A DNA stretch of 43,992 nt, taken from a virus. The translations under genes and the position numbers were made by a program. The stretch covers positions 1-43,992 of the IMG/VR virus record IMGVR_UViG_3300014501_001246; one strand, given 5' to 3'. Under the pieces are notes generated by a model. It saw only the letters and a program-made list of their open reading frames with translations. It ran no database searches and had not been told where the DNA came from. This document shows, in pieces, positions 1,953-23,154 of this stretch (within the stretch, counting starts at the first letter, position 1; each line of letters starts with the position of its first letter).

Positions 1953-2597
1953 CTACCGTCGCTGCCAGGACCCGATCACGCGGCCCTGAATATACGCCTC
2001 GCCGAGAAGCCGCTCGTAGGCCTTGTAGCGCGGGTTGTCTGAGCTGATCATCACGCGAGCGGGATCTGAGTGTGCCACGAATTCCACGCGCTTCAGCACC
2101 AGGCCCAAGCCGTCCCAGACCACAAAGATGCCCGGCGGCGATGGGACGATATCGGCCACATTGACGAACACCTTCTCGCCAGGCCCCAGCGTTCCCAGCA
2201 TCGAATCGCCGATCACCTCCAGCACGCGCACCCGATCGGGGTCTGCCCCGAAGGCGGCCCGGAATTCGGACCGCGGAAACATGTAGCGATGCCGCACGGC
2301 TGCCGAATCAGTTTCGAGCGCCTCTTGGAGACCCCCGGGGCCAGACGTCGCACGCACGTCAATCTCGGAAATCGCGACCATGTCGGTCGGGGTATCGCCG
2401 CCCACCGCGAAGGCCAGCCATTCCGGGGTTTTGTTCACAACTTTCGCGATACGACGGATGGTGGCGAGATCGGGCTCGTTCTTACCGCGCTCCCAAGTCG
2501 CCACCGTGCTTTGCGCGGCACCCACGGCCTCGCCAAGTTCTGTCTGCGAGAGGTTCAGAGCGCTTCGCGCTTCAGACAGACGGGCATGAAAAGTCAT
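1953..2597 (-). CDS. phage repressor: XRE HTH plus S24 peptidase-like domain
   Basis: Likely prophage repressor of the LexA/CI/C2 type. From ATG 2597 it has an XRE helix-turn-helix (LSQTELGEAVGAAQSTVATW), a linker, then an S24 domain with the Ser in GDSML and the Lys in LVLKRV, the expected catalytic dyad. The usual Ala-Gly or Cys-Gly scissile pair is not obvious in the linker (ATSGPGG), so SOS-type self-cleavage is uncertain. A GTG at 2624 would add nine residues; neither start has a good ribosome site. Divergent from the Cro-like gene across an 84-bp region with dyad symmetry. Expected to repress early rightward transcription and probably the leftward operon. Confidence 0.88.
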   Translation of the reverse strand: MTFHARLSEARSALNLSQTELGEAVGAAQSTVATWERGKNEPDLATIRRIAKVVNKTPEWLAFAVGGDTPTDMVAISEIDVRATSGPGGLQEALETDSAAVRHRYMFPRSEFRAAFGADPDRVRVLEVIGDSMLGTLGPGEKVFVNVADIVPSPPGIFVVWDGLGLVLKRVEFVAHSDPARVMISSDNPRYKAYERLLGEAYIQGRVIGSWQRR

Positions 2598-2631
2598 CCC
2601 GAAGGCTATCGGTACGGCGCTCACGAGGCGT

Positions 2632-3480: not shown

Positions 3481-3555
3481 TGCAGGGTAGAGCAACGGTA
3501 GCTCGTCAGGCCCATAACCTGAAGGCAGTCGGTTCGACTCCGACCCCTGCTACCA
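3481..3555 (+). tRNA. tRNA-Met (CAT)
   Basis: 75-nt cloverleaf with encoded CCA. D-stem GAGC/GCTC with loop AACGGTA; anticodon stem TCAGG/CCTGA with loop CCCATAA, anticodon CAT; T-stem GTCGG/CCGAC with loop TTCGACT; acceptor TGCAGGG against CCCTGCT; discriminator A. Oddities: position 33 is C instead of the near-universal T; base 1 (T) faces T72 and cannot pair; the D-stem has A11:T24. Unpaired 1:72 and A11:T24 are bacterial initiator features, but the anticodon stem lacks the initiator run of three G-C pairs. It could serve as an elongator, initiator or lysidine-modified Ile tRNA. Confidence 0.88.
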
Positions 3556-8318: not shown

Positions 8319-8530
8319 CCGTGCGGGGCTTCTACGCAGCCTGTACGCTCGATCACACACCGAGCGGACGCAAATCCCGCGCCACACCCATGCATCCCTG
8401 CCAGGGCGGCTGTGGCGGCGATGTGAAGGCGGGGAGCAAACGCTGCCCGCCGTGCTCCGACATCGCGCAGCAGGAGAACCGGAGGATCAGGAACGGGGTC
8501 AACCGTGCGCGCGGAAGGGTGGCGGCATGA
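8315..8530 (+). CDS. small Cys-rich (zinc-binding) protein, 71 aa
   Basis: From ATG 8315 overlapping the previous stop. Contains CQGGCGGDVKAGSKRCPPC, an apparent CxxxC-x11-CxxC zinc-binding module, followed by a basic tail. A similar small Cys-rich protein follows the replication gene at 10845. Function unknown; size and charge suggest nucleic-acid or protein binding. Confidence 0.6.
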   Translation: MTVRGFYAACTLDHTPSGRKSRATPMHPCQGGCGGDVKAGSKRCPPCSDIAQQENRRIRNGVNRARGRVAA

Positions 8531-9153
8531 CAGCAAACAAGAAACGCAAGGATGCGCATCTCTGGGCCCGTGACCCGGACGATTGGTATGTCGAGCCGCG
8601 CTGGTGCAGCCAGGGCCTTTTCGCGGTCGAACTGTTCCAAGGCAACATCTGGGATCCGGCTTGCGGCTCCGGCCGAATTCTCGATGCGGCCCGCTGCGCC
8701 GGTCACGACACCTACGGGATGGATATCCGGGACCGGCTTAGACGTCCGGACCATGTCTTCGTGCAAGGCGATTTCCTCGCCGCTGAAGAACTCGCGCCGC
8801 ACAATATTGTCACCAATCCGCCTTATCTGCACGCGGACGCGTTTGCAGCGGCGTGTCTGCGCCGGGCGCGCCGGAAGGTTGCGTTGCTCCTGCGCGCACA
8901 ATGGGCGAACGCGGGCACGCGATCGCGCTGGTTGGAAAGCCTGCCGCTGCGCCGCGTTCTGGTGATTACACCGCGACCGTCTATGCCCCCCGGCGCCGTC
9001 ATCCTCGCGAATGGCGGCAAAGACCCATCCGGCGGCCTTCAGGATTACGCCTGGTACATCTTCGAGAGGGACTACACCGGCAATCCGGAATTCGGATGGT
9101 GCAGACGCCCCGATAAATCGAACGCGTCCCGTCTCATGGCGGAGGCCGCATGA
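8527..9153 (+). CDS. DNA adenine N6-methyltransferase-like protein
   Basis: 208 residues. AdoMet-binding motif I is DPACGSG (43-49) and the catalytic motif IV is NPPY (97-100), both intact, the set used by N6-adenine DNA methyltransferases. MDIRD (65-69) fits motif II. The C-terminal half holds PSMPPGAVILANGGKDPSGG and YAWYIFERD, common in compact phage methyltransferases. No partner restriction gene is visible, so it is an orphan enzyme that may shield phage DNA or alter gene control. Overlaps both neighbours by ATGA. Confidence 0.85.
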   Translation: MTANKKRKDAHLWARDPDDWYVEPRWCSQGLFAVELFQGNIWDPACGSGRILDAARCAGHDTYGMDIRDRLRRPDHVFVQGDFLAAEELAPHNIVTNPPYLHADAFAAACLRRARRKVALLLRAQWANAGTRSRWLESLPLRRVLVITPRPSMPPGAVILANGGKDPSGGLQDYAWYIFERDYTGNPEFGWCRRPDKSNASRLMAEAA

Positions 9154-9575
9154 CCTCGCTCTTCGAGATCGAATTTACGTCATCTGATCTGGAAATAACC
9201 AGCATCACGATCGAAGGAGAACGCACGACAATCAGGGTCGGTAGAGCGTTGTGCTCTATTACGCCAGCGGAAGTCCGCGCCGAACTATCGTTCAAAGAAA
9301 CAGAAAACCCTCAATCACAATTCCCAGCGCCTGCGGAGACGGGTGCACCAATCGCCGATGTGGAGTCGATCACAACCACGATGGGCTGTGACGACGCCGA
9401 CCACGCCGGCGATGTCTCCAACGGGGTGAAGCGTCTGGCACCGGAACCAGCGCCGGAGATGGCGGAGGCGCGTGGAAGTTCCTCCGCCATCGACGTTACG
9501 CGGGAGGATAATTTCGAGATTCCCGCGTTCCTTCGCCGCCCTCAACCGCAACGCGAGCGGCGCGAGGCGGCATGA
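9150..9575 (+). CDS. unknown protein with FtsZ-tail-like C-terminus
   Basis: 141 residues. N-terminal 45 residues alternate charged and hydrophobic (small beta domain), residues about 50-118 are acidic, Pro/Ala-rich and probably disordered, and the end reads DNFEIPAFLRRPQPQRERR (IPAFLRR at 124-130). This closely matches the conserved C-terminal peptide of FtsZ (E. coli: DYLDIPAFLRKQ), which docks FtsA, ZipA, MinC and others. As in FtsZ, it is the tip of a disordered tail. A role as competitor in cell division is inferred. The rest shows no FtsZ homology. Confidence 0.7.
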   Translation: MTSLFEIEFTSSDLEITSITIEGERTTIRVGRALCSITPAEVRAELSFKETENPQSQFPAPAETGAPIADVESITTTMGCDDADHAGDVSNGVKRLAPEPAPEMAEARGSSSAIDVTREDNFEIPAFLRRPQPQRERREAA

Positions 9576-9772
9576 GCGCGCTGAAACCCGGCGACGTGGT
9601 TCGCGAACGCGGCACGCTCTGGCCGCTGATGACGATCGCGCGCGTTTCCACCGCGATCACCAACCATCTTTGCTTCGAGTGCGTGTTCACCAATCCGCAA
9701 GGACGCGCGATCACACGCCGCTTCGTTGCCGAGCATCTGGAGGCTTATCAGCCAAAGGCGGCGGCGAGATGA
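9572..9772 (+). CDS. YodC/DUF2158-like small protein
   Basis: 66 residues starting MSALKPGDVVRERGTLWPLM, then TIARVSTAITNHLCFECVFT and RRFVAEHLEAYQP. The 'KPGDVV-(x)-GPLMTV-(x)-CxWF' layout is that of DUF2158/YodC-type SH3-like proteins; similarity is by pattern only. ATGA overlaps at both ends. Function unknown. Confidence 0.55.
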   Translation: MSALKPGDVVRERGTLWPLMTIARVSTAITNHLCFECVFTNPQGRAITRRFVAEHLEAYQPKAAAR

Positions 9773-10848
9773 GCGCGCGCAAACGTCCGAAGGGCAGCTA
9801 TCGCTATTCGATCGTACCGGCTGGGGCAATCACGGATCCCGACATCACGCCGCGCGATCTTCAGGTGCTCTGTCTTCTCGGCCGCCATGCCAACGATCAT
9901 GGCTGGTGTCGTCGAAGCCAGGTGACAATGGGCGAAGAACTCAATTGCGACCGCCGCACCGTGCAGCGAGCGCTCGACCGGCTGGTGGAGGCCGGCTATG
10001 TGCAGCAGAAGGCGGAAGGTCGCGGCAATATTCCTCCGCCAGGCCAAAACGAGCAGCCTTTTGCGGCGCATTCCTATCGCGTGCTGCTCGATCTGGATGG
10101 TGAGGACGAGCGCGCGACAGGTGCGCAAAATTGCGCAGGGGAGGTGCGCACCGATGCGCACGGGGTGCGCGCCAATGATGCGCACGGGGTGCGCACATCA
10201 TGCGCACCCTTAACAGAACATACACTTTGTGAAGATACCCCTTGTGAACAAACACAACGCGCGCGCGAGGAACCGGCTGCGCCGGATCAGGACCAGAAAA
10301 ATTCAGCCAGAAGCGTCTTTGACGAGCGTATCTGGCCTGAGTTCCTACGCTGCCCGGGATTTTCCCGCGAGAACATGCCGAAAGCTACGGCACGGCGTGC
10401 ATTCGAGAACCTCAAGCCACCGATTCCGCAGACCGGGCAGATGGTCGATTGCATCCGCGGCTATTCGAGATGGCTCGCGGCGCAGAACGCGAAGCGAAAG
10501 CCGAACGACCCGTTCCCGATGGCGCATCCATCGACCTGGCTGCATCAACGGCGCTTTGAGGGATTTCTTGAGATCGCTGCAGAAGGTGCTGCGAAAGCCG
10601 CAATCAGCGCCAAACTGTCCGAAAAGCTCGAAGGCGATCACGCTCTGATCGCCAAGGAATTTGGCACAGCGGTCTACGAAAAATGGTTTGCAGGCGCGGA
10701 TATCTCGCGAGGTCCGCCGTTTGTCATCACCACCGATAGTGATTTCAAGCGAAACTGGATTTCCACACACTTCGGCGGGCGGCTGCGGCGCCTTTTCAGA
10801 ATCGACGTCATCGGCATCGAACTCAGGCGAGCGGAGAAGGCGGCGTGA
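9769..10848 (+). CDS. replication initiator with winged-helix domain
   Basis: 359 residues from ATG 9769. Residues about 25-85 form a winged helix of the phage replisome-organiser type (DITPRDLQVLCLLGRHANDH, RSQVTMGEELNCDRRTVQRA, LDRLVEAGYVQ). The middle (about 115-185) is a low-conservation linker encoded by TGCGCA repeats. The C-terminal part (about 300-359) contains VYEKWFAGADISRG and FVITTDSDFKRNWISTHFGG, resembling DnaA N-terminal/DnaA-like helper domains, perhaps the contact for host helicase loading. Layout parallels lambda O, whose gene contains the origin. No helicase or loader gene is seen, so host DnaB is probably recruited. Confidence 0.78.
   Translation: MSARKRPKGSYRYSIVPAGAITDPDITPRDLQVLCLLGRHANDHGWCRRSQVTMGEELNCDRRTVQRALDRLVEAGYVQQKAEGRGNIPPPGQNEQPFAAHSYRVLLDLDGEDERATGAQNCAGEVRTDAHGVRANDAHGVRTSCAPLTEHTLCEDTPCEQTQRAREEPAAPDQDQKNSARSVFDERIWPEFLRCPGFSRENMPKATARRAFENLKPPIPQTGQMVDCIRGYSRWLAAQNAKRKPNDPFPMAHPSTWLHQRRFEGFLEIAAEGAAKAAISAKLSEKLEGDHALIAKEFGTAVYEKWFAGADISRGPPFVITTDSDFKRNWISTHFGGRLRRLFRIDVIGIELRRAEKAA
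10122..10206. repeat. TGCGCA iteron-like array, candidate origin
   Basis: Inside the replication gene, seven TGCGCA and one TGCGCG start at 10122, 10132, 10145, 10155, 10166, 10179, 10190 and 10201, i.e. every 10-13 bp, about one helical turn. A longer unit GATGCGCACGGGGTGCGC occurs twice (10153-10170 and 10177-10194). The next about 50 bp (10209-10260) are AT-richer than surroundings and could unwind. Same arrangement as lambda ori within O. Origin function is inferred. Confidence 0.65.
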
Positions 10849-22245: not shown

Positions 22246-23154
22246 ATGCTCTGGCGCGCGATGCTTCGCAGCACGGCTGTGGGGCTCCTGACCAATGCGC
22301 TCAAAGCGCAAGGCGCGAACGTCCAGTCGAGCAAGGACACGCCGGCCCCCGATGATGGCGGCACGACCACATGGATTGTGGTCTATGCGGACGACAAAAA
22401 GCGCGGGCTGAATGGCACGCAGTATCGTTCGACCGGAACGGTGACGATTGAAATTCGCGTGGCGTCCGATGCGCGGGTCGTTCAGCAACCGGACGGAACA
22501 AATATCGACATGGGTGCCGCGGATGCGGCGCTGTTGCTGGATGCGGCCTGCGAGGCGGTGCAGAACGTGCTCCTGGGCGGGCAGGGGTTCGATGCCTCCT
22601 GCGCCTGCGTGCAAAACAGCCCAACGGTCACGCCCGATCCCGATCTTTTCCCGCTCTTCTTCGCGGGCGGATTGATCAGCGACGGCGCCAGCACCGATCC
22701 CGGTCTGAACGACAGCGATTTCGTTGCCGTGCAGGCGGTCAATGCCAACGGCACGGTCACGCTGAGCGCGCCCTGGGCGCTCGCCGGCGGCGATTACCTG
22801 CTCCATTTTGGAAGCTTTATCGGTCTGTTCGAGCCGCCGATCGAGCAGGTCGAAACCTTCACCCACGAGCCCAACGAGGATTCGAAGCGCCACATCGCCG
22901 GTGCGACGATCGAGATCGTCGGCAACGCGGTCGAAACCTTCGAGCCGGTGATCACCACACCGTTCAACGGCGTCAATCTGTATGTGGACGCGATCAGCCC
23001 GTTCGATCCGCAGGGCAACTACCGGAACCTCGAACCCTTCACCGTCGAAGCTCCACCACGCACGGCCGGCCCGGACGGGCGGCCGGAAATCGTCGGTTCC
23101 GTCGACAATCTTCAGAACCCGCCTCCCGCACCGCCGTGCGACACAGGAGACTAA
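22246..23154 (+). CDS. tail terminator/completion-like protein, 302 aa
   Basis: AAGGA precedes the ATG. N-terminal MLWRAMLRSTAVGLLTNALK, then WIVVYADDKKRGLNGTQYRS and GTVTIEIRVASDARVV; further AAALLLDAACEAVQNVLLGG helix. This is the layout of tail terminator/minor tail proteins that cap contractile tails. About 80 residues (roughly 122-205, including FVAVQAVNANGTVTLSAPWA) look inserted. The C-terminal beta part contains VNLYVDAISPFDPQGNY. Position between gpFII and sheath supports the call. Confidence 0.6.
   Translation: MLWRAMLRSTAVGLLTNALKAQGANVQSSKDTPAPDDGGTTTWIVVYADDKKRGLNGTQYRSTGTVTIEIRVASDARVVQQPDGTNIDMGAADAALLLDAACEAVQNVLLGGQGFDASCACVQNSPTVTPDPDLFPLFFAGGLISDGASTDPGLNDSDFVAVQAVNANGTVTLSAPWALAGGDYLLHFGSFIGLFEPPIEQVETFTHEPNEDSKRHIAGATIEIVGNAVETFEPVITTPFNGVNLYVDAISPFDPQGNYRNLEPFTVEAPPRTAGPDGRPEIVGSVDNLQNPPPAPPCDTGD

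Follow-up and report, generated by a model that had tools for sequence, protein, structure and literature searches.

The locus raises a simple question: why does a small phage protein end in what reads as the C-terminal tail of the bacterial cell division protein FtsZ? In E. coli, this tail is a docking hub common to FtsA, ZipA, MinC, ZapD, SlmA and ClpX. The window, by which we mean the whole 43,992-nucleotide stretch of viral DNA analysed here, encodes a 141-aa protein that the sequence-only reading had described as carrying IPAFLRR at residues 124-130 and as being otherwise unlike FtsZ. Translation of positions 9150-9575 confirmed the tail, giving the C-terminal end REDNFE-IPAFLRR-PQPQRERREAA, in which the core is preceded by DNFE and followed by 11 residues (FtsZ-tail-like peptide DNFEIPAFLRRP). 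The remainder of the protein was indeed not FtsZ-like, as neither Pfam nor PHROGs yielded a family for it or a match to the GTPase domain of the FtsZ/tubulin family. Homologues were found neither in 50,697 phage records nor, by seeds, in IMG/VR or in 84,980 genomes, and a PDB sequence search with the tail gave no match. Among window ORFs of at least 40 aa, the only other FtsZ-like core was LPYWLR, encoded on the opposite strand within a frame of 100 aa.

Set beside the FtsZ conserved C-terminal peptide (E. coli DYLDIPAFLRKQAD), the phage tail has in common the IPAFLR core, acidic residues at -1 and -4 (here Glu and Asp), a hydrophobic residue at -2 (here Phe) and, as far as can be predicted, a flexible tether. 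It differs in lacking the GTPase domain, in its 11 further residues, and in the residue following RR, which is Pro in the 141-aa protein and Gln in 23 of 29 alphaproteobacterial FtsZ tails. The acidic, hydrophobic, acidic order of the flank is that of alphaproteobacterial FtsZ. I374 and L378 of E. coli FtsZ, given as critical for tail interactions in the sections of PMC4117426 that were available, both have equivalents in the phage protein (I124 and L128). An AlphaFold2 model made without an alignment was poor throughout (mean pLDDT 47), with strands at 16-22, 25-30 and 33-37 that suggest a possible N-terminal beta stretch (16-37), and with pLDDT below 50 at residues 1-13, 38-51, 53-56, 58-102 and 107-118. 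The low-confidence middle of this poor model, at 58-102 and 107-118, is consistent with a flexible linker that would place the motif near the C-terminus; pLDDT rose slightly across the motif and the residues after it.

The gene probably belongs to the early operon of the phage (Table 1). Judged by its gene content, the window virus is a temperate phage, because it encodes a CI-like repressor with a weakly Cro/CII-like neighbour as well as terminase and portal genes, the latter two (Pfam) lying downstream of the early region.

Table 1. Positions of the features of the window discussed in the text
Feature	Position	Strand	Remarks
CI-like repressor	1953..2624	-	HTH_3 + Peptidase_S24
tRNA-Met	3481-3555		early region
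DNA methyltransferase	8527..9153	+	phrog_799, E 3.7e-44; stop overlaps start of the 141-aa gene (ATGA)
141-aa protein gene	9150..9575	+	ATG 9150, stop 9575; FtsZ-tail-like C-terminus
FtsZ C-terminal-peptide-like motif DNFEIPAFLRR	9510..9539	+	IPAFLRR at 9519-9539
66-aa ORF without family	9572..9772	+	ATGA overlap with the 141-aa gene
Replication initiation protein	9772..10848	+	phrog_270, HTH_36
tRNA-Arg (gcg anticodon)	22516-22606		to the right of tRNA-Met

In complete scans of IMG/VR, [DE]IPAFLRR was present in 59 stretches compared to 5 for the scramble [DE]IPFALRR with the same codons, the only scramble used as a control. Both here and in the genome searches, only CTN codons were allowed for Leu and only CGN codons for the first Arg; this restriction was lifted for the searches of 47 records and 17 named phages given below. 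With the window excluded, 53 of the 59 motif sites (3 of 5 for the scramble) lay in frames of at least 60 aa, and the site was no more than 25 residues from the C-terminus in 36 of 53 motif frames compared to 1 of 3 scramble frames. By protein cluster, there were 19 for the motif against 3 scramble frames, which were left unclustered (two-sided P 0.0009). The FtsZ signature expression matched none of 119 viral motif proteins of at least 60 aa. When 47 motif phages were searched along their entire records, which may be fragments, a looser pattern gave 48 sites, one in each of 46 records and two in the remaining one, and the reversed pattern gave none; as these records were picked for having the motif, one copy each would also be expected from a rare chance event. 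Among 17 named alphaproteobacterial phages searched whole, acid-IPxFLRR was found only in the already known ppBeUSDA76-1; loose matches in the other 16 had neither the acid nor the exact core. A still looser pattern gave a second core in ppBeUSDA76-1, IPIFLRR without the acid, in a different frame.

Two columns that the search pattern left unspecified agree with the consensus of alphaproteobacterial FtsZ. With the third core residue left free ([DE]IPxFLRR), the matches listed formed 60 viral protein clusters, a sample that leaves out proteins shorter than 60 aa, contains one named phage (L343) besides the window, and has some out-of-frame noise. Among these listed matches, Leu stood at -2 in 19/60 clusters (background 0.08, P 1.2e-7) and Asp or Glu at -4 in 26/60 (background 0.128, P 4.6e-9), with at least two acids at -6 to -2 in 23/60; columns -3 and -6 were not significant. 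For comparison, FtsZ tails were picked regardless of their tail sequence (55 matches, 30 loci fetched, 29 with a closed frame): all 29 had the core, 24 had Leu and one Phe at -2, and 25 had an acid at -4. The tail of the 141-aa protein agrees with them in the core, the acids at -1 and -4 and the hydrophobic residue at -2. At the free position x, Ala was present in 20/60 viral clusters and Asp or Glu in 19/60 (among the matches listed), compared to 26/29 and 0/29 in the FtsZ tails.

The proteins that carry the motif are unrelated to one another. Above the Pfam cut-offs, carriers matched MT-A70 (L025), N6_N4_Mtase (L078, L067), GapR_DNA-bd (L051, L282), HTH_23/28 (L044), DUF3102 (L259), DUF5131 (L292) and DUF2800 with PD-(D/E)XK (L277). 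Weak matches were to HTH_3 (L253), DUF3102 (L293), RMF (L041) and a zinc ribbon (L329), and many of the 30 carriers scanned had no family (e.g. L005, L032, L262, L276, L287, L297, L304). In L259 and L276 the motif closes the protein; in other carriers it stops a few residues short of the C-terminus or, in L287, L297 and L262, lies close to the N-terminus. In the fetched loci, it was present on 19 MT-A70 proteins and absent from 3, with 7 versus 13 for GapR-like proteins and 2 versus 4 for N6/N4 methyltransferases, counts that are biased because the loci were fetched for having the motif; one of the 3 MT-A70 proteins counted as lacking it (L014) has GIPAFLRR. In nine loci (L025, L036, L077, L089, L091, L120, L244, L249, L343), an MT-A70 protein has the motif and a GapR-like protein of the same locus lacks it, and other phages have the motif on GapR. 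In L304, both of these proteins lack the motif and a third carries it, and in L277 it is on the gene adjoining a motif-less GapR. From these sequences, the early gene that bears the motif thus differs between phages, normally with a single copy in each genome.

Homologues of the MT-A70 carrier include some with the motif (the identical L515, and L517 with 44% identity and a different tail ending in DDLTIPEFLRRRVTA) and some without it (L516 with 69% identity, L518, L519, and also L520 and L521, which have internal stops), so the motif is an add-on to MT-A70 and not part of the enzyme. In 146 genomes from a single genus, at least 7 MT-A70 matches were found, 5 of 7 without the motif; at most 12 candidates were scored per genome, and one genome with a motif-bearing MT-A70 protein (G001) was missed. 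This presence and absence fits a portable module that the carrier does not need. As for hosts, Bradyrhizobium phage ppBeUSDA76-1 (OP596613.1) has the motif on an MT-A70-like protein, prophage-like loci with a motif-bearing MT-A70 protein were found in Bradyrhizobium (L146) and Afipia (L161) among the matches listed, and the named phages with GapR-like matches have mostly alphaproteobacterial hosts.

E. coli FtsZ itself ends in IPAFLRKQAD, according to the portion of PMC8138137 consulted. The K version IPAFLRK was present in 5 viral stretches in a complete scan of IMG/VR, which is not above the scramble. In one of these (L452), a frame of 110 aa, or 67 aa if counted from an internal Met, ends LDIPAFLRKQAD and matches E. 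coli FtsZ across KQAD too. This is a putative gene, overlapped by a frame on the opposite strand, and its protein has only the motif in common with the 141-aa protein. Among the other four, L450 has IPAFLRKQPEP within a protein truncated where the contig stops, the frame of L451 finishes in IPAFLRKARG and that of L453 is 18 aa long; L454 finishes in IPAFLRKQAD at a contig start and may belong to a host ftsZ gene that ends there. Taken together, these cases are suggestive of viral motif versions that may be matched to the FtsZ tail of the host. The contigs of L450 and L452 also encode similar proteins (MALHTxLPIYKxAYDLL...), which may be Avd-like accessory proteins of diversity-generating retroelements.

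In cells, FtsZ is the widespread owner of the core. Across 289 alphaproteobacterial genomes, after removal of sites whose next codon begins with C (most of the FtsZ ones), 15 sites remained in 14 genomes, compared to 2 reversed-control sites: 8 in FtsZ, 1 in MT-A70, 1 in a DEAD-box helicase, 2 in alike family-less proteins of one genome, and 3 others. DEAD-box helicases L347 (GDDIPAFLRR) and L371 (FDDDIPAFLRR) end in the motif. Such helicases were considered as a conserved host owner and rejected, as 20 of 21 closed frames of alphaproteobacterial RhlE-like relatives (L375-L399; 30 loci fetched) have another kind of C-terminal tail, xP[AS]F, e.g. GDHVPAFLLRP. In VIT/VWA proteins of other proteobacteria, acid-IPAFLRR lies 69-159 residues before the C-terminus (e.g. 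DDLDYLEIPAFLRRE in L525); this assignment was made by Pfam for L178 of Competibacteraceae, by TIGR03788 below its cut-off for L193 of Thauera, by clustering for L228 and L239, and by motif context only for L524 and L525. The class of Aromatoleum (274 genomes) had 7 sites compared to 3 control sites, none of them phage-tail-like on reading.

The proposal of FtsZ-tail mimicry, made for one protein in the sequence-only reading, is therefore supported beyond that example: the motif is enriched, its carriers are unrelated, its flanking columns are FtsZ-like, and the equivalents of I374 and L378 are present. The decoy that blocks or rewires host division, also suggested in that reading, would be one possible use of such a mimic. 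For the 141-aa protein, we consider it about evenly balanced whether the C-terminus is a tethered FtsZ-tail mimic that docks on tail readers, competes with FtsZ and delays septation. The protein would probably be made early, from the operon it shares with the DNA methyltransferase and replication initiator. Its copy of the FtsZ tail, held on a flexible tether, would then dock onto host tail readers, FtsA first and perhaps FzlC, MinC and ClpX, and compete with FtsZ for membrane anchoring and regulation; as a further step, septation might be held back during phage replication. Both residues critical in E. coli are present, and such a tethered competitor is the simplest reading. In the available passages of PMC4117426, the free FtsZ tail peptide binds SlmA, and earlier work is referred to for ZipA and FtsA; those of PMC9098913 describe FtsA binding measured with a labelled tail peptide. 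For Agrobacterium, the accessible part of PMC13170164 names FtsA and FzlC as membrane tethers of FtsZ, and these two may read the phage motif. The benefit to the phage could be a delayed septum, as with lambda Kil, which made cells longer upon induction and delayed lysis in the extract of PMC3961180 at hand. Other phages would attach the motif to any early protein at hand, usually one per genome. In its general form, that temperate phages, above all of Alphaproteobacteria, each have roughly one FtsZ-tail motif, which is portable, has been gained, lost and moved among unrelated early proteins, is perhaps matched to the host's own FtsZ tail, and plugs into the divisome hub, the proposal is tentative and falls somewhat short of an even chance.

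Other explanations can account for parts of this evidence. The motif may be a docking tag by which early proteins, and phage DNA along with them, are brought to membrane- or septum-located FtsA, so as to position replication or to aid segregation of a lysogen. The MT-A70, N6_N4_Mtase, GapR_DNA-bd, HTH_23/28 and PD-(D/E)XK carriers act on nucleic acid, DUF3102 and DUF5131 are of unknown function, and the single copy in 46 of 47 records would suit such a tag; however, carriers are interchangeable, many (the 141-aa protein included) have no assigned domain, and DNA proteins are in any case common in early operons. We regard this explanation as somewhat unlikely. We hold it unlikely, a little more firmly, that acid-IPxFLRR is read by some other shared partner, of host or phage, that is not a reader of FtsZ tails. 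Asp or Glu at x, common in the viral proteins among the matches listed and absent from all 29 FtsZ tails, would be explained by such a partner, as would the related xPAFL tail of RhlE-like helicases (xP[AS]F in 20/21), IPAFLRR in cellular VIT/VWA proteins, and the several carriers that are nucleic-acid proteins. Against it, columns -4 and -2 agree with FtsZ, and the L452 frame matches E. coli FtsZ over KQAD.

As the consulted portion of PMC8138137 counts the C-terminal FtsZ sequence AKEPDYLDIPAFLRKQAD among ClpX signals, with PMC5256927, likewise available in part, also cited for this explanation, the motif could serve as a degron or handle that shortens the life of early proteins or ties up ClpXP. 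A C-terminal degron would fail in L297, L287 and L328, whose motif lies close to the N-terminus or a long way from the C-terminus, and this explanation is very unlikely. Finally, the motif could be real elsewhere and the likeness in the 141-aa protein alone a matter of chance. The gene has no homologues, and evidence from its conservation is thus nil; in addition, a first scan without the acid was full of out-of-frame noise. Yet eight residues match in frame, 11 residues before the end, in an operon with a methyltransferase and a replication gene, and the scramble occurs in just 5 stretches of the whole collection, which makes such a coincidence highly improbable.

Phage proteins aimed at the divisome are already known, and mimicry of the FtsZ tail by a phage appears to be new in the open-licence literature, in whose full texts no paper describing it was found. 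Kil (lambda), Gp0.4 (T7), Icd (P1) and T5.008 are described, in the excerpts seen, as acting on FtsZ itself (Icd and T5.008 as phage division inhibitors in PMC11897509 and PMC10714956), and Kil acts also with ZipA (PMC3961180, in part). The accessible text of the Gp0.4 paper (PMC13423816) makes no mention of mimicry, FtsA or the C-terminal peptide. No sequence relation between these inhibitors and the 141-aa protein was found in the 50,697 phage records, Pfam or PHROGs. DicB, of phage origin, is likewise a mimic of a division protein, but of MinD, by which it recruits MinC (PMC3961180, in part), and not of the FtsZ tail. SlmA, a DNA-bound member of the FtsZ-tail network, reads the tail, whereas the phage protein would supply one. 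By these descriptions, the inhibitors above hit FtsZ directly; the target of a tail mimic would be the docking hub instead. Short linear motif mimicry is well known in eukaryotic viruses, and, if the tethered FtsZ-tail mimic is real, it operates in phages too. The motif would then be a sequence handle for divisome-targeting proteins that are invisible to homology searches, and its effect should survive a swap of the carrier and disappear when the two residues are mutated.

The window phage itself probably infects an alphaproteobacterium, on the weak grounds of its DUF2303 and portal matches. The best DUF2303 matches among those listed were phages of Aurantimonas, Sinorhizobium, Labrenzia and Rhizobium; overall, 13 of 34 DUF2303 records were from Arthrobacter and 8 of 34 from Burkholderia. 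The portal protein had its best match in an Acetobacter phage and was about as similar to those of Serratia and Citrobacter phages. No relatives of the replication initiator were found in IMG/VR, and a terminase search gave one distant contig. The possibility that homologues of the window methyltransferase lie beside the motif was rejected, as 15 matches in 14 of 190 genomes gave no IPxFLRR and two looser sites. The first ORF opens with nine-residue repeats (MAPVARCGG and variants), seen by eye as tandem DNA at positions 1-190 of the window, where the record begins.
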